NCBI RefSeq assembly: GCF_019059575.1
Contig: NW_024881969.1
Location: 434,001 to 498,000 of the forward strand
DNA length: 64,000 bases
Direction: 5' to 3'
DNA from: Amphibalanus amphitrite
Taxonomy: Eukaryota > Arthropoda > Thecostraca > Balanomorpha > Balanidae
In this document: positions 8,804-59,685 of the stretch, piece by piece
How positions within the stretch are numbered: the first letter of the stretch is position 1
How the letters are laid out: each line of letters begins with the position of its first letter
The notes under the pieces: model-generated
Seen by the model: only the letters and a program-made list of their open reading frames with translations
Told to the model about the DNA's origin: nothing
Databases searched by the model: none
Position numbers and translations under genes: made by a program

Positions 8804-9099
8804 CCTCGTAAGAAGTAACTGCTCGCCTCTGCACTAGGAGTATGGATATCGTGCAAACGTGTATGGATATCCTTGAGTATGGATATGGATATCCACTGAC
8901 AGAACAGACATACAGACATGCTGTAAACGCCATTTACACTGCCAATACCATGGCAAATCCAATGGCTATCTATGATTTTTGATCATCGTTCTACATTTTC
9001 CAAAATCTTGAACTGAATATTGGCAACTTCTCGTGACTACCTCACAACCATGATGCATGCATAGTAACCACGTACTCGTATGATAAAATGAATGTCACC

Positions 9100-9557
9100 A
9101 TCGTGTTCTACGCCCAAAAGTACCCATAAAACATGTGTCGTGGGCTGCGAATAGGTACTAGTTTTAATTTTCGGGGTTATATGCTTACCTGATTGACCTG
9201 ACTTTGACCCTGGCCTATGTTTGACTGACCCCTACATGGATCTGACACTCTTTTAGCACTTATATGAAGGGTTGTGCACAGTTGTGACAGAGTTTATGAC
9301 GAGAGGCACCGATTGCGAGGTTCTAAAGTCCATGCTATTGAAAGCCTGATTTCAAGTGTTTGACCTGACCTTGACCCAACCATTGACCTCGGAATTCAAC
9401 TTTCAAGTATTTATCTGAATTGTCTCGTCGCGTTCTTTCGTTTGCCGCCTCGTGCGTTTCGCTGCGCCTATTGGTTCTCGAGTTATCGGCTGGGGGCGTT
9501 GAACGCCCCCCCCGGCAAATGGCGGGTGGGGAAATACCCCAGCAACTGCCGGGTTAA
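9100..9557 (+). mobile_element. TTAA piggyBac-like non-autonomous element, right-end fragment
   Basis: The right end is intact. TTAA at 9554-9557 is preceded by a GC-rich terminus with a tandem partial copy of itself (GGCGGG, then CTGCCGGG). Inside that is a hairpin with arms GGGGGCGTT and AACGCCCCC around one base, at about 9492-9510. Upstream are AGGTCA-type half-sites, including TGACCTTGA at 9366-9374, and the family motif ATAAAACATGTGTC near 9127. The left end is not visible, so the start is approximate and the copy is 5'-truncated. It is in the same orientation as the copies at 53941 and 58497. Confidence 0.7.
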
Positions 9558-15675: not shown

Positions 15676-16554
15676 TTAACCCTCGCCCGTATAGGGGGGG
15701 GGGGGTCGAACGGACCCCCTCCCTCGGTTTTTCACGAATAACTCGCGTAAAAAGCGGCTGATCGCGACGAAACTTTCAGTTCCCTCACGTTAATCAATTT
15801 TACACCCACCCTGAAATTGTCATGACCCTGACCTTAATGACCTTTGACCTGTGACCTACTTTTCGAGACCATGTTTGGCCGGAATCGCGTTTCGGCGTAT
15901 GTCGGCTCGCATTAGCGGCGCGTTTGCAGTCTTTTCGTGGTTTTAAGCGTTCAAACATGGGATATGATGTTGCTTCCACGCATTAGGGTGGGTGTCAAGG
16001 TCACCGGAAAGTCAGGTCAGGTCATTGACCTTTGATGACCTCGGTTCACTTTTTCGAGTTTTACATGTTTCTAGGCCAGTTTTAGGAGCTGAATTCGAAT
16101 TTAGCAGCCATATGAACATTTACGAAGTAGTTTTGGTGCCCTCGTAACACGTTGCGAAGCTGTCAGAGGCGGTTGCCACCTACTACGAATACCCTTACTG
16201 GTTGACCTGACCTGACCTGACCCGACCTGGCCTAAATGGATGAAGACATCATCTGTGATCAAAACTAACATGATATTCGTGATCAGCACCCCGAAAACCC
16301 CATAGCAGCCACGCTTTACGACTTCTAACAGGTCCCGATTTTCCCGGCTTTTGGGTCATTGACCTGACCTGGAAGGTCAACCGATGACCTATGAAAATTG
16401 GGTATCATCGGCTTCCTCTCGTCACGGCCAACACGCTCGTTTTTTCCGCGAAGCTCTAGCTCGATCAGGGGCGAAACGGCAAGGGGGGGGGGGTCCAACG
16501 GACCCCCCTTTATACGTTTGCGGCTGGAAAAACACCAATACGGGCGAGAGTTAA
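15676..16554 (+). mobile_element. TTAA piggyBac-like non-autonomous element (879 bp)
   Basis: TTAA lies at both ends (15676-15679 and 16551-16554). The inverted termini read CCCTCGCCCGTAT and, from the right end, CTCTCGCCCGTAT. Just inside each end is a hairpin of the form GGGGGTC-loop-GACCCCC. The right end has extra sequence with a partial second copy of the terminus (TATACG). The left interior carries the family block AAACTTTCAGTTCC...TCAATTTTACACC. Half-sites are dense, including a perfect direct repeat TGACCTTTGACCT (15838-15850), TCAAGGTCA (15995-16003) and a TGACC run at 16200-16230. There is no coding capacity. It is inserted in the older relative that starts at 15347. Confidence 0.85.
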
Positions 16555-17387
16555 GGTGTTAACCTCGGGCCAAGGTCAGGTCACAGCACGTCAGGTCACG
16601 AAGCTGGTCAAAGGAGGTCATATTGCATATCAATCGATTCGGCAGGTCTTTTCATGTCCATTAGTGGCTTTATCGACTCGGTAGCTTTAGTTGATCGGGA
16701 GTTATTGACGAAAAACTGTTACGTGATAAATGACGTCACGCAAGATCAACAAAGCAAAATTGAAGCATCAGACCTTGCAAGGAGCGCATGAAATCACGAT
16801 TCCGTGTGCTTGAGAATTTGAGATAGTTGTATATCATTTCCGGATCAAACTAGCAATTTCCATATTCCACCTGACTTTTAATGGTGAGAGACCGACCTGA
16901 TCTCAGGCGACCCTTCAGAAAATCCGAGATATACATTTATACAAGTTGTGAGACCTCTCGACCATACTATAAGATCCTGTAAGTTTTATCTCCCTATGAA
17001 AGCTCTGCACTGAGGGTGTTGCGAAGTTGGAACATTTTAGGACTGTGCACACAGTCCTAAAATGCTCATTTTAGGACAGTTTTGGACAGTTTCACATAGT
17101 TCATTTTAGGACTGCTCATTTATGACGTCATAGATCAGTGACCTGACTTAACAATGCGGTTGGCGTAAAAAAATCCGTATCAAATCCCGACTAAAAAAAA
17201 TCGACTTATTATCCGGTTAATCAAATCCCGACCATGTTTTTACCTGGCCATTAATGTTCTAGCCTTACAGGCGATTGTTTGAACGCGGAAGATGCTGAAT
17301 CTTGGTTAACCCCATACTTATCGTATGATAAAGAACGTCAGTGTTAGAAAGTTAATTAACAATTTTATTTAGGATAGTTTAATTCAA
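16555..17387. other. probable continuation of the older TTAA-family element, then AT-rich DNA
   Basis: AGGTCA half-sites cluster at 16565-16625, and a CRE-like TGACGTCA lies at 17123-17130 beside TGACCTGAC. TTAA at 17217-17220 is preceded by CCGG, but the expected inverted terminus is not convincing. No gene is seen. Confidence 0.35.
17033..17064. repeat. 15-bp-arm palindrome with flanking half copies
   Basis: CATTTTAGGACTGTG (17033-17047) and its exact reverse complement (17050-17064) flank two bases. Further direct copies of CATTTTAGGAC follow near 17066 and 17101, with partial TTTGGACAG copies between. The block looks like a decayed tandem of one short sequence in both orientations. Confidence 0.8.
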
Positions 17388-27076: not shown

Positions 27077-27370
27077 ATGACGTCACATGTACCATTGGCG
27101 CGGGAACCGGGGGGGGGGGCAGTGGGGACAGCTTGCCCTCCCCCTAACTCTGGGGCCGTGGGGGCCCCCACAACTTTGAGACGGAAAACCGCACTTTTTT
27201 GCAAATGTTTTCTTTTTTTGTTGAAAAAGCCAAGGATGAAAAATAAGTGGCCTAAAACCGGTGAGAAAACTAGATTTGGGGGTACCCCAGGTTGATCTCT
27301 ATTATGGTGTGCCCCCCCCCCCCCCCCACCAGTCTGAAAGTAGTTCCCGCGCCCCTGTATGTGACGTCAT
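27077..27370. repeat. ~294-bp inverted-repeat element with G-run/C-run arms
   Basis: The left end begins ATGACGTCACATGTAC and continues to GGCGCGGGAACC and a G-run (27109-27119). The right end read inward on the other strand begins ATGACGTCACATAC and continues to GCGCGGGAACTAC and the complement of a long C-run (27312-27328). The ends therefore form an imperfect terminal inverted repeat with a perfect CRE (TGACGTCA) at each tip. No coding capacity is seen. It may be a small foldback element or MITE. A few dozen bases further right, GACGCGGGTTAA (to 27449) looks like an isolated terminus of the TTAA family. Confidence 0.55.
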
Positions 27371-29884
27371 GTTGCATATCAGTGGATCGCGGAAAACCGC
27401 AGGGGATGTTCAACCCCCCTCCCCCGTCCCCCAGCAGGACGCGGGTTAATGAAAAAGCGGACAGGATTCGGACGCGTCTGCCCCCGTGCCGCTACAAACC
27501 AAGGCCCTACAAAGTAATCGTGTCGCGGGGCTCCGTCCAGGAGCTTGGTTGTCATGGAAACGACGCTTTGTATAAAGTCCTTCATCGCCGTAAAGTTTTC
27601 TTTTGTGATGCCCTAAACGCAAAATTCAAAATCTCGTGGAGGTGTGGCCCTAAAAAATGCGGCCCTAAAGTTGTGGGGCTAAATTAAAACAGCTCGAGCG
27701 ATGATGGTCTAAACTTCTAAAACGGGTATGTATGATCAGTAATGTAACAGCGTGTTGCATCTCCTTCAGACTATGTCCGAACTCCCCAGCCCGACACCCT
27801 CCAACCGAGCTGATTTGACGGGTCCAGCGCGGTGGGCCGGCCGGTCCGCCGGAAACCGGGGGGCGTCCCGATGGTATCACGAGCCGGGACTGGTCGGACC
27901 GCCCTCCAACACCTCCGCCGGGCCGCCCCGCCGAGACGCGGCATGCAAAGGCAGCTGGGAGCCGCGGGAGGTCGCGCTTTGGCAGCGGCTGCCCACCACT
28001 CGGCAGGGCTCCGACGGTGGCCGCCCGACAGACCGACACCCTCCTCCCACAGTTCCCCGAGAGTCATCTCGCCACTCTCTGGTCATCTCACTGAGTCATT
28101 CAACTCGTGTGATGATCACTGGGCGGCTCACTAGAGAAAGACACGACTTGTGTAAAGTTCACTGACATCGTCATCCACCTCAAGGTCGACAAAGCTAAAT
28201 CTCGCTAGCCATATCTGAAGACGTTATGGGCTACAGCGATAGAAAATAGCATATCGCATACACATGCAATCATCCAATAAATAAAAAATTTCATAGAACA
28301 CGGTACATGCTGAGAATGTAGCATGCGGCGGAAGACGCCTCATGTAAACTTATAAAAAATCCTGAAGAGCCCTGTTAGCATGACGAACTGACACAGCTGA
28401 TTTGCGTGTTACCGCCATACGGGTGTGATTGTATTTTCAGAAAGGGGGACACCCTGGACTGGATGCTTTGCTGCATATAGTCTTACAGAACAGTAGATGC
28501 TTCGGAGTCGTGATGGATATTTTCGCGGAATTAAATAAAATAAAAACTTTAAAGATGACACTGTTGATTTTTTTTATATCCATTATCTAATTGCATGATG
28601 GCATGTTTCATTTGTTCAAGCCAGCAAGCACTTCACAAGTCGCCTGTAACAATCGGCCGTGCAATTTGCAGCGGTACCACACAATCGATCAATGCCAAGC
28701 GGCACGCCTTTTTCTGACGCTGGCGACGCGTACCCGAGTCAAAAATGTCCACCGCGACCACGAGCGTTTGTAGGAGGCCCCAGTGGCGGTAACCCCACCT
28801 GCTCACCTGTGTGCGCACAAACCGCCATCCATCTGTCATCCGTCACCGCCCGTCATCCGTCATCACCGACACGTCATCCCGTCACCGCCAACAATGGAAT
28901 AAAGACCGGCCGCGCCGCGATGGGCGCCACATTCCGCGGTGCTTCTAACAAGAAACACGCCCTAACGAGGCGCTGCGTATCGTCGCACTGGGCACTGCTG
29001 TTATGGACTGGGCGATCCCATGAGCGAAGACACATGACGGTGGTGTGGAAGGCCCTGGGGCGGAGGTAGACAGGTAGCCCACGGTGTCATTACTCGACAG
29101 AGGTGAAACGGTCGTGAAACGCAGCTGATGTATGTGCGAAAATCTGCGAGACGTAATGCGGTGATATCAGCGTCCAAAGAGTGACAGGCGTTATCTCAAA
29201 GAACACGAAACTCTTTCTGTGCAGAGCACTTGGCGTAAGTGACGCTCGTTTGTGGGGAGACACCGGCCAGATGCGTGGGAACTTCGACAACGACGGACAA
29301 CGTAGAGCGACTTCGACTCGCGTGGAAACCAGTGCGTCTCACCGTCTCACCATCAGCTTGAGCCGCTTCCGACTACCGGAGAAACCGGCAGATTCTCGGT
29401 GCACCAGATTCGGCACCGATTACTGAAATGGCCCCGTGCGCGCCGGCGGCCAAACGCGTGCAATGTGATTGTCGTTTGAGCATCGTGCAGCTGGCGGTCC
29501 GTGAGAGGTTCTCAGGCGGTCTGCGGCCGCCCGGCGCGCGCCCTGCCTGGACCGTGTGCAGAACAATCACTGCGGTTGGAAAGTAGAGGCAGATGGGCCG
29601 TCGTCGCCGTGAGTCGCTTGATTTGACATGGGAACAGGCCCGGACACAGGCTGGCGACACGACAGCTGGCCACCCGCCGCGGAAGTGATCGGACGGTGAT
29701 GCCGCCCGATGACGGCGCTCACCGTCGGAAGTGGGTTCATCGGCACTGTGAAGACGCCGTTTGGACGCCACTGACGGAGTTGTAACAGCCGGGCCGACCT
29801 TTAAAGAGCGCTCGTTCGATCGAGCGATAGAAATGTAACGGTTCGTGAGCGGTTCATTCAGCCGCTGAGCCCGCCCGATATGGG
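27371..29884. other. no gene recognised; CpG-dense patch at 27820-28040
   Basis: GC-rich, CpG-dense DNA at 27820-28040 is open in several frames on both strands, as expected by chance. A tract at 28830-28890 is rich in CGTCATCCGTCA strings. No splice-supported exon is visible. Confidence 0.4.
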
Positions 29885-31061
29885 TTAACCCGCGCCCCGT
29901 AGGGCTACCGGCGGACCCTACCACCCGTAGGGGGGGGGGGCCGTTTCGGCCCCCCCCTAAGATCTCGGAAAGTTACCGGCCGATTTTCAAAATTCAAACG
30001 GCGTTCGATAGCCCCACCCGGGAACTACCTTGTGACCAAATTTCATTGACCTAGGTCAAACCGATGACGTCACAGGTCAGGTCAAAGGTCAGATTTTCAC
30101 CGTTCACAGGCAATTCAAGAAATGTGCTGTGAAAGCGAGTAAATTGGTAATTTATTGAAAACCATCGATGGTACATTGTTCGTCAAACACATACTTTGCT
30201 ATCTGAGGTCACTGATACCAGGTCAGGTCACAGCGAGGTCAGGTCACCGGGGGTCACAATATGAATGTGTCGTGTGATACATGTTTTATGGTCCATTTTA
30301 CATGACAAATGCGATTATGTGGGTTAGGCAGCCTTTGGGGCCAGCCTAGGTCACGTTTTGGTGAAGGTCAGGTCAAGGTCAGGTCAAATTAGGTCAAATT
30401 TCAAAGTTGATATTTTTGCATAAAATGGGTATCGATTCGATGCAGCTCGTCACGGGGAGTCTAATGGTGGTCTTCGTTTTGCTCTACGAGTTCTAGAATT
30501 GCCAAAAATTGAGTTTGAAAATTTGACGTCATCATTTTTGAACAGTTTTTTCGCTATAACTTGGCCAAAAAACGAGGTATCGATCTGAAATTTGGTATGT
30601 AGATAGAAGACGGTAGGCACTATCACATATATTCCGGTTTTTTCGAAACTCAAAAAACTTTTTGGATTTTTTGGCGAATATATCCAAAAAAATGCTTTTT
30701 TGATTTTTGGGGGTCAAAACTCAAAAATTTCAAAAATTCGAGATAGCAGTTTTGTAGCCCTGTCAATTCTACACCTTTTATGTCTTGATCATTTTTCTGT
30801 ATCTTCAAAGCTGTAGTCCTGACAGGTCTTCTCGCAAAGGTCTTTTTTCGGTCGAAAATGACAGAACATGACGTCACTCTGACGTCATTTGTGGCCAACC
30901 TATCATAGCCTCTGGAAAAATTTTTGGTCACAATGTGTAAAATTGATGCCCGGAGGGGTCCTGAAAGTTTGGTGGCGATATCTCCAGCCGTTTAGGAGAT
31001 ATCGACCGAAAAGGACAGGGGGGGGCCGTTTCGGCCCCCCCCCCTACGGGGCGCGGGTTAA
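29885..31061 (-). mobile_element. TTAA piggyBac-like non-autonomous element (1177 bp)
   Basis: TTAA at 29885-29888 and 31058-31061 bounds a perfect 16-bp inverted repeat, CCCGCGCCCCGTAGGG. A hairpin of G-run, CCGTTTCGG and C-run lies at both ends (29930-29958 and about 31013-31045). The left end has a second partial copy of the terminus, marking it as the equivalent of the right end in the 53941 and 58497 copies; hence minus orientation. The interior holds many AGGTCA half-sites, including AGGTCAAAGGTCA (30079-30091) and TCAAGGTCA (30373-30381). Family motifs ACATGTTTTAT (about 30280) and CATATATTCCGG (about 30626) are also present. No transposase is encoded. Perfect termini imply recent mobility. 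Confidence 0.92.
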
Positions 31062-40257: not shown

Positions 40258-41639
40258 GTGATAATGGGCTAAGTTGTACCTATCTCGGCCGGCACTTTGT
40301 CTGCCGTATCACTAATGATCACACTGTATTCACAGCAGCAATCGTCTATCTCGATAGTTCGGTTGCTGAATCGGTGCGTGTTTCAGTAAGTGACGGTGGT
40401 TCCTTACTCGTCGGTAATGCCGCTCGGGAGACCTTTAGTCCGTAACTGATCCCATGTGCATGATCCTGCTGTCGGGCAGCTTTTGGACGGCGAACGCGAT
40501 CGCGACTACCCGGACAGCAGAGGCGATGCTGGAAGTTGGATCCATTTTCCAGTTCGGCGTCTTAGATGGCTAGGCCAACGCGTCTTAGCTGCTTGAACGC
40601 TTAGGCCGAGTGTCGCCCACACGGGTCAGTCGGATGCCTCGCATCGTACTTTCGCGCGTGTAGGGCTTAATGTACGTTCGCTCGTTGTCATTCAAATCGG
40701 CTGTTTACTGGCCTGGTATCTTGCGCTTCTAAGAGTACATGAAAGGAATGCCGTAATGATGTCAAGTCTCATTCTCGTCAACGCGGATATCCGGCTGAAT
40801 GCGGCCTGGCCACCCAACCGCTGCCGTTCCAAATCGCCGTCCGTATTGTGACTGCTATACTAACGTTTCCATCACCGTCCGGGTGTCCAGTCTGGCTCCC
40901 GACCCATGCCGTTTAGCGACAAGACTATGATCGTTTCACCGTCTGGGTGAGCTCAATCGTTGTCGTCTCATCAGGCTATGCCACGGGGTGCAGTCTTGCG
41001 ACGCGGCCGCTTACGTTTCCGATCGACCGCTTCGACGTGTTTAATGTAGTCTAGTTTAGTTTATTGATAAAACATCTACGGGCATGGTCACACAATGACG
41101 GACACAGTCTTAATTAAAGATGGTAGGCATGGTACGGATGAAATCATGGGCTAAGGCAAACCAAGGTTTATAAGTACAATAAAGGTGACACAGATATGGT
41201 TATATGTGTTGTGACACAGGTATAAAAAGGAAGATTTAATTATACGACGGACCAAGTGACGTTCGAGTGGATATACGCAGCTACCCGGTTTCGTCAATCT
41301 GCACAGCAACTGAGGCGGTCTGCTAGCCCCACTGCTAAGTTTCTAGCGCCCGCAAAAACGCTTATCGTTTAGTCAGTCTGGCTGTTCGACTGGTAAACTC
41401 TGTCCATCCGATTGTTAGCGTTTTCGACCACTGCCTCTGGCTGCGTCTCATTGTCCTCGGTAGTCCAGCTATGCCACGGGATGGCCGAACCAGCGCGGGC
41501 TGGCGGCTCGGCGGCGCTGCCGGAAGCGGGTTTTGTCTGAGTGCGTGGACGGAGGTGACAACAATGGATTCAGCAGCAATCCCCATGCTGCCATAACAGG
41601 TGCCGTTTCCGTCAGGGTATTCCGGACGTACCGTGAGTA

Positions 41640-42960
41640 TCAGACTGGCTACTCCGCTTCGCAGTCCTGGCGAACCGGCTGTCGACGTTTCTAACCGACC
41701 AGAATGTATATCCGACCGACAGCACTGCGCCCCAATCGTGAGTCTTGTCAGACCGGCTACTCAGCCTTGCAGTCCTAGCGAACCGGCTGCCGACGTTTCT
41801 TACAGACCACACTGTTTATCCGACAGACAGAACTGTCTCAATCGTGAGTCTATCAGACTGGCTACCCAGCATTGCAGTCCTGGCGAACCGGCTGCCGACG
41901 TTTCTTACCGACCACATTGTATATCCGACCGACAGCACTGCGCCTCAATCGCAATTATCAGACCGGCTACTCAGCATTGCAGTCCTAGCGAACCGGCTGC
42001 CGACGTTTCTTACAGACCACACTGGTTCCGACCGACAGAACTGCGCCTCAATCATGAGTATCAGACTGGCTACCCAGCATTGCAGTCCTGGCGAACCGGC
42101 TGCCGACGTTTCTTACCGACCACATTGTATATCCGACCGACAGAACTGTGCCTCAATCATGAGTATCAGACTGGCTACCCAGCATTGCAGTCCTGGCGAC
42201 CCGGCTGCCGACGTTTCTTACCGACCACATTGTATATCCGACCGACAGAACTGCGCCTCAATCGTGAGTATCAGACTGGCTACTCAGTATTGCAGTCCTG
42301 GCGACCCGGCTGCCGACGTTTTTACCGACCACACTGTTTATCCGACCGACAGAACTGCGCCTCAATCATGAGCATCAGACTGGCTACCCAGCATTGCAGT
42401 CTTGGCGAACCGGCTGCCGACGTTTCTTACCGACCACATTGTATATCCGACCGACAGAACTGTGCCTCAATCATGAGTATCAGACTGGCTACCCAGCATT
42501 GCAGTCCTGGCGACCCGGCTGCCGACGTTTCTTACCGACCACATTGTATATCCGACCGACAGAACTGCGCCTCAATCGTGAGTATCAGACTGGCTACTCG
42601 GTATTGCAGTCCTGGCGATCCGGCCGCCGACGTTTTTACCGACCACACTGTTTATCCGACCGACAGAACTGCGCCTCAATCATGAGCATCAGACTGGCTA
42701 CCCAGCATTGCAGTCTTGGCGAACCGGCTGCCGACGTTTCTTACCGACCACATTGTATATCCGACCGACAGAACTGCGCCTCAATCGTGAGTCGATCAGA
42801 CTGGCTACTCAGTATTGCAGTCCTGGCGAACCGGATGCCGACGTTTCTTACCGACCACATGTGTATCCGACCGACAGAACTGCGCCTCAGTCGTGAGTCT
42901 ATCAGAATGGCTACCCAGCATTGGGTCGTGGCGAACCGGCTGCTGATGTTTCCGATCGAA
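41640..42960. repeat. ~105-bp minisatellite, homogeneous core, ~12 units
   Basis: Units of about 100-107 bp each contain CAGACTGGCTAC, GCATTGCAGTCCTGGCGA, CCGGCTGCCGACGTTT, TACCGACCAC and CCGACCGACAGAACTG. Adjacent units in 42050-42800 are nearly identical, and two-unit blocks recur (for example 42160-42390 against 42470-42700), indicating higher-order duplication. Units toward either end are more diverged. Because lengths are often multiples of three, frames stay open for hundreds of codons on the plus strand. These are repeat artefacts. Confidence 0.95.
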
Positions 42961-45032
42961 CCCATTGCGTACGACCGGCCGCACTGTGTGTCAACTAGTA
43001 CGGTCAGCCGTTGGGGTGGTGGCTGTCTTGTAAGCCGTTATGACCGATCGTAGACGGTCACGTGCTCGTTCCTGTAACCGCATTTGGCTCAGACCTCCAT
43101 CGTTCATCTTCCCAATGGACCGGCAGCACCAGACTGCCATTTCCATGATGCTGGTCGAACAGAGTGGTCCAGTCAGCTGCGCTGCAGTGACTGGCGATAG
43201 ATCGTGGCCCGTCCCTACAGGCGTTTATCAGTAGAGCCGGTGGTGGCGACATCTCGTTCTCTACGATGCGTTCCGACCGCCTACCCTTCACATACTTAAT
43301 CGCTCCGTTAGTCTGGCTATGTGGCTGATTACGCTCTCGGATGACCTGACTGCACGTTCCCGGAGCGTACATGCATGTTTTCTGGGTGTTTACAATGTAT
43401 GTGCAGGTGTCCCGACGCATACGCAACAATGTGATCCAGCTGTCGCGTCCACAAATGCGTGGCTGCTGTTTTGATAGTGCCTAATAGTTTTACCACCCAA
43501 ATACTAGCATTTTGTCTCGACCGCCCGTGCTGGTAGTTGGATGCTCCGACGACTAATATTATGGACCGACCGCCGAGTCCGACCGATAATCCGGCCTTCG
43601 CATGACCACTACCTATCGTTATATACAGCTTACGATACCTGTGTGCAACTGCGCGGGGGATGTTTAACCATCCAATGCAGTCCAGATCTCTTACTGACTA
43701 CCGTTTCTTTAGTCGCTGTTGTCAGTCCGGCTCCAACTAGCCCAGTCCGGCACCGAGACCTGGCTACTCTTCCGACCACTCCCATGGAGTGTTTCACAGA
43801 CTGTTTCATCGGTCTCGACAGGCGGAATCTTCGACTCAACAGTTTGGCTATTTGACTGCTAATGTTGGCCCGACCGACGTGTTTACTCGCCCAGTATTTT
43901 AGCCTTCCCGCTGCTATACGATCCCCGCCGACCGCTGAGTGCGTCAAACTGTCCCCCCTGGCTCTCCGTGTGGTCGCAGCCTGGTTTGCCCACTTCTGTT
44001 CTGTTTCCAACAGACCAGAACAAATATGCATTAATCGTTCATGCAGTCTGGCTCTGCTACTATCACGTGTAGGCCGCCCACATTGTGCGTTTCATTGGTT
44101 TCAGACGTTTGAGAACAACGACTGACGACGCCGTCGATCGACTACGGTGTGATCAACTGTATCATTGTCCGGCTCGCAGCGGCTTGTGCTTCCCCCTATG
44201 ATTATTTTACGATCGATCGTGGTGGATTCACAGTTGCCGGCACCCTGCATCCATCTCACTGCAGTCTGGCTCATCATCGACCACTGATGCCGGTGTACCT
44301 TAACCGGTCTTCAACGCCTGAACCTCAGACTGTCCACAGTTTTGCGTTTGTCTGCTCGTGCCTGACACCTGCATGGCTTCGAATTGTCGGCTCGTCTGTC
44401 TGCAATCTACATAGTAACCCACTGCACCGTTATTGACCGATCGTTGTGTGTTGCACCGTTCTCGGCAAGCTGGTTTCGACCGATCGCAGTATAGCCAGCC
44501 GACTTCTAGGCCGGCCGACCGTAACTGGTGTTAATTCAGTCTATGCAGTTGTATGCTCTTGACTGACGAACAGTCTGCTCTCCGGCTGCTAACGTTCCCG
44601 ACTAACCACAATGGGTGGTGACCGTTCCCGGCCGCCCAGCTCTTCAACTTAAAACAGTCTGACCATCCCACAGCCACCGCAGCGGAGTAACACAAATCGA
44701 CGCGCCACTACGACGCCATCTGCTTGTACCCGCGCGGCAATGTGACATGCGTATCTATGACAGAAATGTTCCCGACTTCGTCACGCGGCGACTCGCGTTG
44801 GTTCCACCTCCTGCAACTGAGCACTCAGGTCTGATGGCCAATATCCGGCGTGGTTTCTTCTACCATGTTTCGTCGTGAAACAGGCGGCCCCAATCGGGTC
44901 CGAAGAAGAATGTGGAACGGACGAAATGGCTTATACGGTACGTACCATTGGCTTATAACATACGCGTTTATATGCCTACATATATACCCGCGCACAGTCT
45001 CGCAAACATTCTGTCCTGTCGGGTGTCATTGG

Positions 45033-53799: not shown

Positions 53800-53940
53800 A
53801 TATACCGGACCTCGCGGCACTGCCATTGACCCCAGAGATTTGACCCAGCGGCACTGCCGATCAGGCCAGAAGCACTGGCATTGACTCCAGGGACCGTAGT
53901 ACTGCTACTGAACCCGTGTCAGGCCTTGCGGCACTGCCAC
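53800..53940. repeat. ~29-bp minisatellite, left part (continues 55126-55250)
   Basis: Degenerate units of the form CGGCACTGCCACTGACCCC(A)GGGACCGTAG recur here and resume directly after the TTAA element at 55126. Joining the flanks at a single TTAA gives a plausible continuous array, so the element inserted into the array. Confidence 0.7.
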
Positions 53941-55125
53941 TTAACCCGCGCCCCACTGGGGGGGGGGGCTATTTATAGCCCCCCCCTTCCGTTTTTCTGC
54001 AATAACTTCCAAACGGCTTGACGTATCGACGCCAAACTTTCAGTACCTTCGGCTGCATCAATTTGACACCTTGTGATAAAATATGATTTTCGTAGCTACC
54101 ATAGGTCGGCCGGAAATGACGTCAGAGTGACGTCATGTTCGGCCGATTTCGAAGCAAAACATTGAACCACGGCAATCGCTCCCAAGAGCTCAGTTTTTAA
54201 GCTAGATCCAATTTCTTTGCATGAGAGGACTCAGAATAGACTGCGCTATCAAACTCCTATCTCAGATTTTCGAAATTTTGAAAATTTCGAAAATTTAATA
54301 TAATTAAATTCAAAATTTATATTTTTACATTTTTTTCAACAAGTTTTTGACTTTTCGAAAAAAACGGAATATATGTGATAGAACGCCTTATCATGAACAA
54401 CTCTAGCAAGTTTTAGCTAAATATCTTCCAAAATGGCCAAGTTATACGCATTATTGCAAAAAATCACAATTATTAATTTTTCAAATCAATTTTCCAGCAC
54501 GTATTTGTCATCGTACGCCAATATAAATAGCACCATCGTGATCCTGAGCTCAAACTGCATCCAATAGGTACCTTTTTTGTTGAAATATTAAACTTCAAAA
54601 TTTGACCTTTTTTGACCTGAAAGTGACCTGACCTAAGCTAAATTCGACTCAAAATGACCTCGAATGACACAAACGACATCAAATTCGAAATCTTTGGCCT
54701 AAATGGACCATAAAACATGTGTCACGTGACCGACGCATGATATAATATTTTCGTGACCTGTGATGACCTGACCTTGACCTGAAAATCAAAGTACAAGTTT
54801 GGTACCCTCAGGGTATCTAGAGCATCTGTTCACGAGTGTGTGAACCAAAAATGAGCCTGATCTGACTTGTAAGACGGCGACCAGAGCCCAAAACGTGAAC
54901 AAGCCAAAATGCTAATAATTTTTACTTTGACCTGACCTGTGACGTCATCGGTGACCTCGAGGTCAATGAAATTAGGTTTCGCTCGGCAGTTTTTCCGGGG
55001 CTATCAGACGCCGTTTGAATTTTGACGATCGGCCCAGTAGTTTCGGAGTTAGGAGGGGGGGCTATAAATAGCCCCCCCCCCCAGTAGGGCGTGTTATACG
55101 CAGACCCCAGTGGGGCGCGGGTTAA
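53941..55125 (+). mobile_element. TTAA piggyBac-like non-autonomous element (1185 bp)
   Basis: TTAA at 53941-53944 and 55122-55125 bounds a perfect 17-bp inverted repeat, CCCGCGCCCCACTGGGG. Hairpins with arms GGGGGCTAT and ATAGCCCCC lie inside both ends. The right end carries a second, diverged terminus (CCAGTAGGGCGTG). The left interior has AACGGCTTGACGTATCGACG and AAACTTTCAGTACC, the block shared with the other copies. Motifs GGAATATATG (about 54367) and ATAAAACATGTGTC (about 54711) and TGACCTTGA (54769-54777) are present among many TGACCT half-sites. There is no ORF of note. It is inserted in a short minisatellite. Confidence 0.92.
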
Positions 55126-58496: not shown

Positions 58497-59685
58497 TTAA
58501 CCCGCGCGGGGCTGGGGGGGGGGGTAAATTTTACCCCCCCTCGCGAATTTTTGCAATATCTCAAAAACGGCGGCGCGCAGCGCCGCCAAACTTTCAGTAC
58601 CTTTTCTTACATCAATTTGACACGTTCCCTGAAAATTTGAGCGAAATCCGTCAGAAAATTTTTGAGAAATTGACGTTTTAGTGACGTCATGTTCGCCATT
58701 TTCGCCTCAAAAACGGCAAAAGTTCAAACGCCGCTAACATCTTCATTTTTAAAGGAATCAAGACGTAACAAAAAAGGATATACGTAATTCTACTTTGTCT
58801 ATCAAATGGCTATCTCGGTTTTTTGAAAATTATGGATTTTGGCCCAAATTTTTTCAAAAAACTGACTTTTTTGGGAAAATAACTATAAAATCCAAAATTT
58901 TGAGTTTATCGAAAAAACCGGAATATATGTCAGAGAAGTGGTCTATGTGCACCTACATACCAAGTTTTAGAAGAATCGGTTCAAAAATGTGGGAGTTATT
59001 CAAAATTGTATGACGTCACGACACACAAAAAATTTGAAAAATGACTTTTTTGGAAGTTCTAGACCTCCTACGGAAACAAAAATAGCACCATTCGATTCGC
59101 CGTGAAAAACTGCATCAGATAGACACCTTTTTAGGCCCTAACAACCAACTTCAAAATTTGACCTCACTTGACCTGACCTTGACCTGACCTCGACCTGAAA
59201 TTCATCCAGAGGTGGTCCATATCACTTATTGAGTGTGCCTACTGAATTCTATAAGTAAAATGACCCATAAAACATGTGTCGCACATGCCATTTTCTATAT
59301 TTTGTTTTTGGTGACCTGACCTGACCTGACCTGACTTTGACCTTGACCTCTGAATGATATCGTATGCAACGAATATTGTCTTGGTAGCCTAAGAACACGT
59401 TTTGGGCGATCAGTCTCAGTCCATGACTCCATTCTTCGGCAACTACGGTGCAAGGCCGATACTGTAGGAACTTGCAATTTGTACCCTTGACCTGACCTTG
59501 ACCTTGACCTCAAACTTAAAATTAAGTACATGTTTTTAGTTGTGCGTGATGAGATCTTTCGATTGGCGTTTGAATTTTCCAAATCGGACCATTAGTTCGG
59601 GAGATAACAGGGGGGGGGGGGTAAAATTTACCCCCCCCCCCAGCCCCGCGCGTTCGGCTGGAGACCCCAGCCCCGCGCGGGTTAA
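58497..59685 (+). mobile_element. TTAA piggyBac-like non-autonomous element (1189 bp)
   Basis: TTAA at 58497-58500 and 59682-59685 bounds a perfect 17-bp inverted repeat, CCCGCGCGGGGCTGGGG. Hairpins with arms GGGGGTAAA and TTTACCCCC lie inside both ends. The right end has a tandem second terminus (CCCAGCCCCGCGCG, GTTCGGCTGGAGA, then the terminus again). The family blocks AAACTTTCAGTACC, GGAATATATG and ATAAAACATGTGTC occur in the same order as in the 53941 copy. Half-sites are dense at 59155-59210, 59310-59350 and 59485-59510, including TGACCTTGA at 59174-59182. No transposase is encoded. Confidence 0.92.

Follow-up and report, generated by a model that had tools for sequence, protein, structure and literature searches.

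The piggyBac transposon (Ifp2) of Trichoplusia ni contains a palindromic-like 19-bp repeat, which is bound by a CRD dimer, and the palindrome of its left end (LE) is located at bp 17-33. The right end (RE) has undergone an insertion and a duplication, so that bp 34-63 of the RE resemble bp 7-35 of the LE, and this asymmetric pair alone supported both excision and integration by the native enzyme in cells (available sections of PMC7351741). The palindrome is bound as bent duplex DNA (PMC7351741). The spacers of piggyBac are 3 and 31 nt long, while the inverted repeats of piggyBac-like elements are, depending on the species, identical or different between the ends, and the formation of a hairpin or cruciform from their subterminal repeats has been put forward as a theoretical possibility (available sections of PMC12324416). 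The presence of a palindrome at both ends is not superfamily-wide, because piggyBat of Myotis lucifugus, which has imperfect palindromes near its left end bound by the C-terminal domains, has no corresponding right-end palindrome, and its ends are unmatched (PMC11707139). The CMITE elements of Acropora corals are a non-autonomous case: they have TTAA sites and CCC tips, reside in genomes with piggyBac genes, and form families with differing tips around a common interior, which is more conserved than the tips (available sections of PMC2872659).

Here, a 64,000-nt stretch of the genome of Amphibalanus amphitrite, further referred to as the window, was analyzed together with copies of its elements from elsewhere in the assembly. 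The data suggest that these elements are probably non-coding, non-autonomous piggyBac-type DNA transposons of about 0.9-1.2 kb, in which a palindrome close to each end is the putative site of a transposase dimer. They are similar to Ifp2 and to piggyBac-like elements with STIR/IIR in the TTAA site, the palindromic repeat at both ends, the LE/RE asymmetry, the repeated tip segment and the offset of ~28 bp, as far as these are described in the available parts of PMC7351741 and PMC12324416. They differ in that they have no coding sequence, that their palindrome is built on long G and C runs, and that many subfamilies with distinct cores occur in one genome. Unlike CMITEs, which are ~100 bp long and for which the accessible part of PMC2872659 does not mention a palindrome, the complete copies are 879-1224 bp long, and the 60-bp interior consensus printed there gave only chance-level matches to them, none beyond 12-15 bases.

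Elements in the window

The window contains four complete elements (A-D) and one fragment (E) with a common layout, in which TTAA is followed by a GC-rich tip and then by a palindrome made of a G-run, a core and a C-run (Table 1). The original prediction had described four complete copies and a fragment with this architecture, and all five were found where it had placed them, the fragment consisting of one right end only. The window holds nine hairpins with at least five G, a core and at least five C, which are exactly the nine element ends, while 100 dinucleotide shuffles of the window gave on average 0.57 and at most 3.

Table 1. Elements and associated features in the window
Feature	Position	Strand	Remarks
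Element A	15676..16554	+	879 bp, TTAA to TTAA; most diverged of the four complete elements
A left palindrome	15694..15719		core TCGAACGGA
A right palindrome	16483..16508		core flipped, one base different
Element B	29885..31061	-	1177 bp; subfamily CCCCGTA; minus-strand reading puts left end at 31061
B right-end palindrome	29930..29957		core CCGTTTCGG
B left-end palindrome	31018..31044		core flipped relative to tip
Element C	53941..55125	+	1185 bp; subfamily CCCCACT
C left palindrome	53958..53986		core CTATTTATAG
C right palindrome	55055..55082		
Empty-site proxy for C: paralogous repeat unit	53810..53869	+	aligns ungapped to both flanks of C when these are connected through a single TTAA
Element D	58497..59685	+	1189 bp; subfamily GGGGCT
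D left palindrome	58514..58540		core TAAATTTTA
D right palindrome	59610..59641		
Fragment E	about 9089..9557	+	right part of element, single tip
E right palindrome	9492..9513		core CGTT..AACG
TGACCT (AGGTCA) arrays within D	59159..59510	+	comparable arrays also in A, B and C; E has four hexamers

In B, C and D, the LE and RE of an element have the same core, and in A a single base distinguishes the two. The cores of an element are inverted copies of each other in C and D, as expected for inverted repeats, while those of A and B have the direct orientation, so that the core is flipped with respect to the tip. The ends of A-D are asymmetric: the G-run starts at position 17-18 at the LE and 43-46 at the RE, so that the RE hairpin lies 26-28 bp deeper, and the tip tag was seen by eye to be duplicated on the RE side. 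Both tips of B, C and D and the single tip of E have CCC, while A has CCC on the left and CTC on the right (TTAACTC instead of TTAACCC); for this feature the window is a less biased sample than the fetched copies described below, whose left-tip search pattern contained CCC. B, C and D have homologous interiors (66-76% identity in BLAST pieces of 86-886 bp), and A is similar to them mainly in ~130 bp at its left end (68-70%).

No open frame of at least 150 aa is contained in any window element; a frame at 29373-29924 extends 40 bases into the end of B. When 30 open frames of the window (28 of its 54 frames of at least 130 codons and two shorter ones) were compared to Pfam, no family was above the cut-off, and the one weak match was to Slu7 (E = 0.094). 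The IMG/VR scan gave two matches. The G/C hairpin was absent from the DNA of either one, and on reading they were judged to be phage-like coding DNA and chance and were set aside.

The hexamer TGACCT/AGGTCA, the consensus half-site of nuclear receptors, is concentrated in the elements, because 64 of the 108 occurrences in the window fall within their 4.9 kb, and each of the 53 complete copies analyzed contains at least six. AGGTCA repeats are also present beside element A, at 16570-16640 and 15540, which suggests that A sits in or adjoins another element of the same kind. Two other regions were noted in the window. A possible degenerate relative at 27100-27449 has a right-type tip (TTAACCCGCGTCCTGCTGGGGG, minus strand) and G and C runs, with no left TTAA noticed, and a tandem array of ~105-bp units in roughly a dozen copies is located at 41600-43000.

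Abundance and subfamilies

The assembly containing the window comprises 807.5 Mb. The pattern of the commonest left tip (TTAACCCGCG, 3-14 bases, G7) had 9837 forward and 40,759 reverse matches genome-wide, with one match per end among the listed forward and several per end among the listed reverse matches, while the reversed-pattern control had 0 and 1. We infer about 20,000 left ends with the commonest tip, which, if the copies were complete at ~1.2 kb, would be near 3% of the genome. Sixty regions were fetched around the first listed places, all on contig 1 and up to position 2.64 Mb (seven listed places beyond it were left out), and the same pattern defined 66 distinct left ends in them.

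Together with the four window elements, the 49 complete fetched copies gave a set of 53. These have 16 tip tags, some of which are one-letter variants of another, and most of the tags have their own core. The copies with the same tag are 96-98% identical inside (medians for the five tags with at least three copies), so each of these five tags looks like a burst.

The TTAA target site

Tag sites were also searched for without TTAA in the query, and 116 of the 123 sites found were preceded by TTAA, which supports the target site originally proposed. When the two flanks of C were rejoined at one TTAA, they aligned to the paralogous repeat unit over 60 bp with no gap, as expected for a TTAA duplication.

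Position and pairing of the palindromes

An asymmetrically placed subterminal palindromic repeat, as known from the described parts of piggyBac systems (PMC7351741, PMC12324416), was found at both ends of the sampled copies. By our count, the first base of the G-run is at position 17-18 in 50 of the 52 left ends that could be parsed, and at 43-47 in 49 of the 53 right ends. The palindrome centers are 28-37.5 bases from the first T in 45 left ends and 53.5-63.5 bases in 37 right ends, which corresponds to about bp 25-35 and 50-61 when counted from the first C. The left ends were selected without requiring a C-run or palindrome, and at least eight uninterrupted pairs were present in 45 of the 66, and at least four in 57; among the 46 right ends, which were those found within 1260 bp, the corresponding numbers were 37 and 42. 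The stems of the listed paired ends have 8-16 pairs, eight being the threshold. About half of the 21 left ends below eight pairs have a broken or short run, as judged by eye; four of the 21 belong to the CCCTGGT/ACCTGGT group, and the remainder have a mutated or lost core. Run lengths also differ among copies within one subfamily.

The paired change of the hairpin arms, which the original prediction had noted, was supported. Among 17 hand-listed cores (one for each tag, taken from the left end if visible there, three outer pairs each, with variants of listed cores and ends without a core omitted), 44 of the 51 pairs were standard, while in 20,000 shuffles the average was 18.9 and the highest value 34, although this test overstates independence, as some of the 17 cores may be related.

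Such co-variation could reflect selection for the folded DNA as such, in the form of a hairpin or cruciform, if an extruded G/C stem were recognized, or if folding aided transposition or replication, so that any pairing core would suffice. This explanation is in agreement with the small conservation of the core sequence compared to its pairing, with the flipped cores of the CCCCGTA and CCCCGCT subfamilies and element A, and with the stem lengths, and hairpins or cruciforms of subterminal repeats have been proposed on theoretical grounds for piggyBac-like elements (available part of PMC12324416). On the other hand, the two complete copies of subfamily CCCTGGT retain the core CTATTTTTTG at both ends with only the outermost letters paired, eight of its ten letters being unpaired. 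The near-fixed position relative to the tip and the identical letters at both ends also point to a reader of sequence, and the T. ni palindrome is bound as a bent duplex in the available description (PMC7351741). Hence, selection on the folded structure as the main explanation seems rather unlikely.

Matching of the two ends

The cores of the two ends could be compared in 52 of the 53 complete copies. They were identical in 28 copies and identical save one base in five; in the flipped orientation one copy matched exactly and two save one base. Four copies, all of subfamily ACCGAC, had two differences, and 12 were in other relations, several of them because parsing failed at broken runs, while two belong to subfamily TCCTGGC, in which the cores of the two ends, CCTCAGGAG and CCGATTCGG, are unrelated. 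Thus 36 of 52 copies have cores that are the same or flipped within one base, compared to 60 of 2296 LE/RE combinations across tags, and 56 of these 60 pair CCCTGCT with CCGGGCC, which have a common core. When one copy per tag was used, eight of 15 matched, and 20,000 re-pairings never reached eight (maximum five).

The earlier claim that both ends of one copy carry the same core therefore holds for B, C, D and most sampled copies, while the cores of A differ by one base and those of TCCTGGC are unrelated. Elements whose two hairpins are unrelated or unpaired, which had been named as the refuting case, do occur, as a minority: the cores are unrelated in TCCTGGC, and the same at both ends but unpaired in CCCTGGT.

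Tag and core are linked, as judged from the 66 left ends and one genome-wide count. A listed core or a part of it is present in 61 of the 66 left ends, and no tag has two different listed cores beyond one-letter variants. One core is common to the tags CCCTGCT, CCGGGCC, CCCGGCC and CTGGGCC. A CCCTGCT-tagged left end without a listed core (contig 1, 1729057) has CTATTT instead, which resembles part of the core of another subfamily. Genome-wide, CCCTGCT with its own core (TGTTTGAACA) occurs at 1873 + 1962 exact places, and the controls gave 0.

The matching of arms and ends could also arise without selection, if template switching matched the arms of a near-palindrome and conversion matched the ends of one copy. 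Flipped cores are an expected by-product of such a process, and the variable run lengths within subfamilies fit it as well. However, the differences between LE and RE cores are fixed in ACCGAC (six of six copies) and present in three of the four CCCCACT copies, which argues against continuing conversion between the ends. In addition, three autonomous piggyBac families of this genome center their palindromes on the same base with other letters (see below), and a neutral process is not expected to hold this position. A neutral origin of the pattern is therefore improbable, and gene conversion between the ends of single copies, which had been offered earlier as an alternative, is rejected as the main cause. 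Structure-based selection and neutral palindrome repair may still contribute.

Shared interiors with different ends

The interior tree grouped subfamily CCCCGCT beside GGGGCT despite their different tags and cores at both ends. The CCCCGCT copy L055 is 89-96% identical to ten GGGGCT copies from position 100 to 950, but only 64% identical in bases 28-100 and 64-69% beyond 950. Hence, one and the same interior occurs together with different pairs of matched ends. The GGGGCT copies among themselves are 94-98% identical in the interior and 94-97% at the ends. A second CCCCGCT copy, L031, has the same mosaic pattern, which is less sharp (interior 81-95%), and in a third, L011, only the first part of the interior is shared with GGGGCT. 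Subfamilies CCCTGAT and CCCCGTA form a similar, less sharp mosaic, with 87% identity inside and 68% at the left end. For these two pairs of subfamilies the interior is thus more conserved than the ends, as in CMITEs. The mosaics could be explained by exchange of interiors between lineages through recombination.

piggyBac transposase genes in the same genome

For PF13843, the family of piggyBac transposases, 116 matches were listed in the genome. By our count, 65 of them have an open frame of at least 550 aa, four of the 65 containing one stop. PF13843 was confirmed at eight loci, one of which adds the zinc-finger family PF13842 just above the cut-off. At 14 of the 116 loci (eight as about 4 kb and six as 701-bp upstream windows), no transposase was located inside or beside elements with CCCGCG/G-run ends; a left end was recognized at six of these 14, and none was of this type. 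The search for an autonomous copy, which had been suggested as a check, thus found piggyBac genes in the genome, and at these 14 loci none with the ends described here.

Three autonomous piggyBac families (L071, L074 and L075) have clear LE palindromes, all centered 27.5 bases from the first T, with the arms GTGTCCTCAT/ATGAGGACAC in L071, CGTATCAT/ATGATACG in L075, and TGGACA/TGTCCA in L074, the last also present in L084. L071 and L075 repeat their inner arms at the RE (at 144.5 and 141.5, respectively), so that the RE palindromes of these two are 141-145 bases from the tip, compared to 53-64 in the non-coding elements. In L074 and L075, the inner arms are also repeated farther inside the left part of the element. 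No LE palindrome was found in L077, and L072 has an AT run only. Together with the palindromic subterminal repeats published for both ends of piggyBac elements (available parts of PMC7351741 and PMC12324416), these families do not support the original view that end hairpins are foreign to piggyBac, which was rejected on the basis of the published repeats.

Just outside the TTAA ends of L072 and L077, matches to window-type elements were observed, and these two autonomous copies seem to be nested within elements of this group. Longer copies were considered as autonomous candidates and rejected: L067 (3292 bp), a GGGGCT element, holds an inserted reverse transcriptase frame of 413 codons (L067:3287-4525; PF00078, 1.9e-24), and seven frames from L059 (3331 bp), L058 and L055 plus a second L067 frame matched no Pfam family at 0.01.

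Kolobok and Sola3 are also TTAA-targeting superfamilies, and TTAA targeting alone cannot separate superfamilies. One of these two could move the elements, in agreement with the lack of a partner transposase at the 14 of 116 PF13843 loci. However, the elements conform to piggyBac in their CCC tips, in having a palindrome at about bp 25-35 and in the offset between LE and RE, and the search, which covered PF13843, detected piggyBac genes with long open frames in the assembly. Movement by another superfamily is therefore very improbable.

Discussion

The identification of these elements as probable non-autonomous piggyBac-type transposons is supported by the TTAA sites, the mostly matched ends, the co-variation of the arms, the piggyBac-like offset and the mosaics of interiors and ends, as well as by the piggyBac genes of this genome, of which three families have palindromes themselves. 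Several observations speak against it: none of the 14 transposase loci (of 116) had ends of this type, L077 has no LE palindrome and L072 an AT run only, the RE palindromes of L071 and L075 are farther from the tip, the cores of TCCTGGC are unrelated and those of CCCTGGT unpaired, and 21 of the 66 left ends have fewer than eight uninterrupted pairs. The elements would be mobilized in trans by a piggyBac transposase, and the G-run/core/C-run palindrome would be the counterpart of the piggyBac subterminal palindromic repeat, a putative site for a dimer of the C-terminal zinc-finger (CRD) domain. The joint change of the arms, the near-fixed position with changing letters and the tolerance of a flipped core could all be explained by a dyad-symmetric protein site. 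Since one enzyme would have to read both ends, a lineage would keep a matched pair, and each such pair could have founded a burst of copies, which is seen as a subfamily. The interiors, being less constrained, would be exchanged through recombination, so that lineages with different site pairs coexist and trade interiors. A further, tentative possibility is that the tip tag and palindrome together act as an exchangeable matched key, with more than a dozen such keys coexisting, each of them recognized by the C-terminal domain of a different transposase, and the shared interior being passed on among them.

Palindromes at both ends are already known in the piggyBac superfamily, and coral CMITEs are a known case of a common interior with differing tips (PMC2872659). 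In open-licence PMC papers, our search returned no description of palindromes made of a G-run and a C-run, nor of a single genome with many types of matched ends. To our knowledge, long G and C runs are part of no known piggyBac site, which also counts against the proposed identification.

piggyBac is a widely used genome-engineering tool, and in our judgement little is known about how its subterminal palindrome evolves in step with the enzyme. The thousands of copies in this genome, which form subfamilies with different palindromes at a near-fixed position, would allow a direct test of this question, and the mosaics, in which one interior is combined with different ends on both sides, indicate that end identity and interior can evolve separately. 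If the proposed matched keys are real, this genome would amount to a naturally occurring collection of piggyBac CRD specificities in pairs, with the long G and C runs as a CRD site of a new kind.
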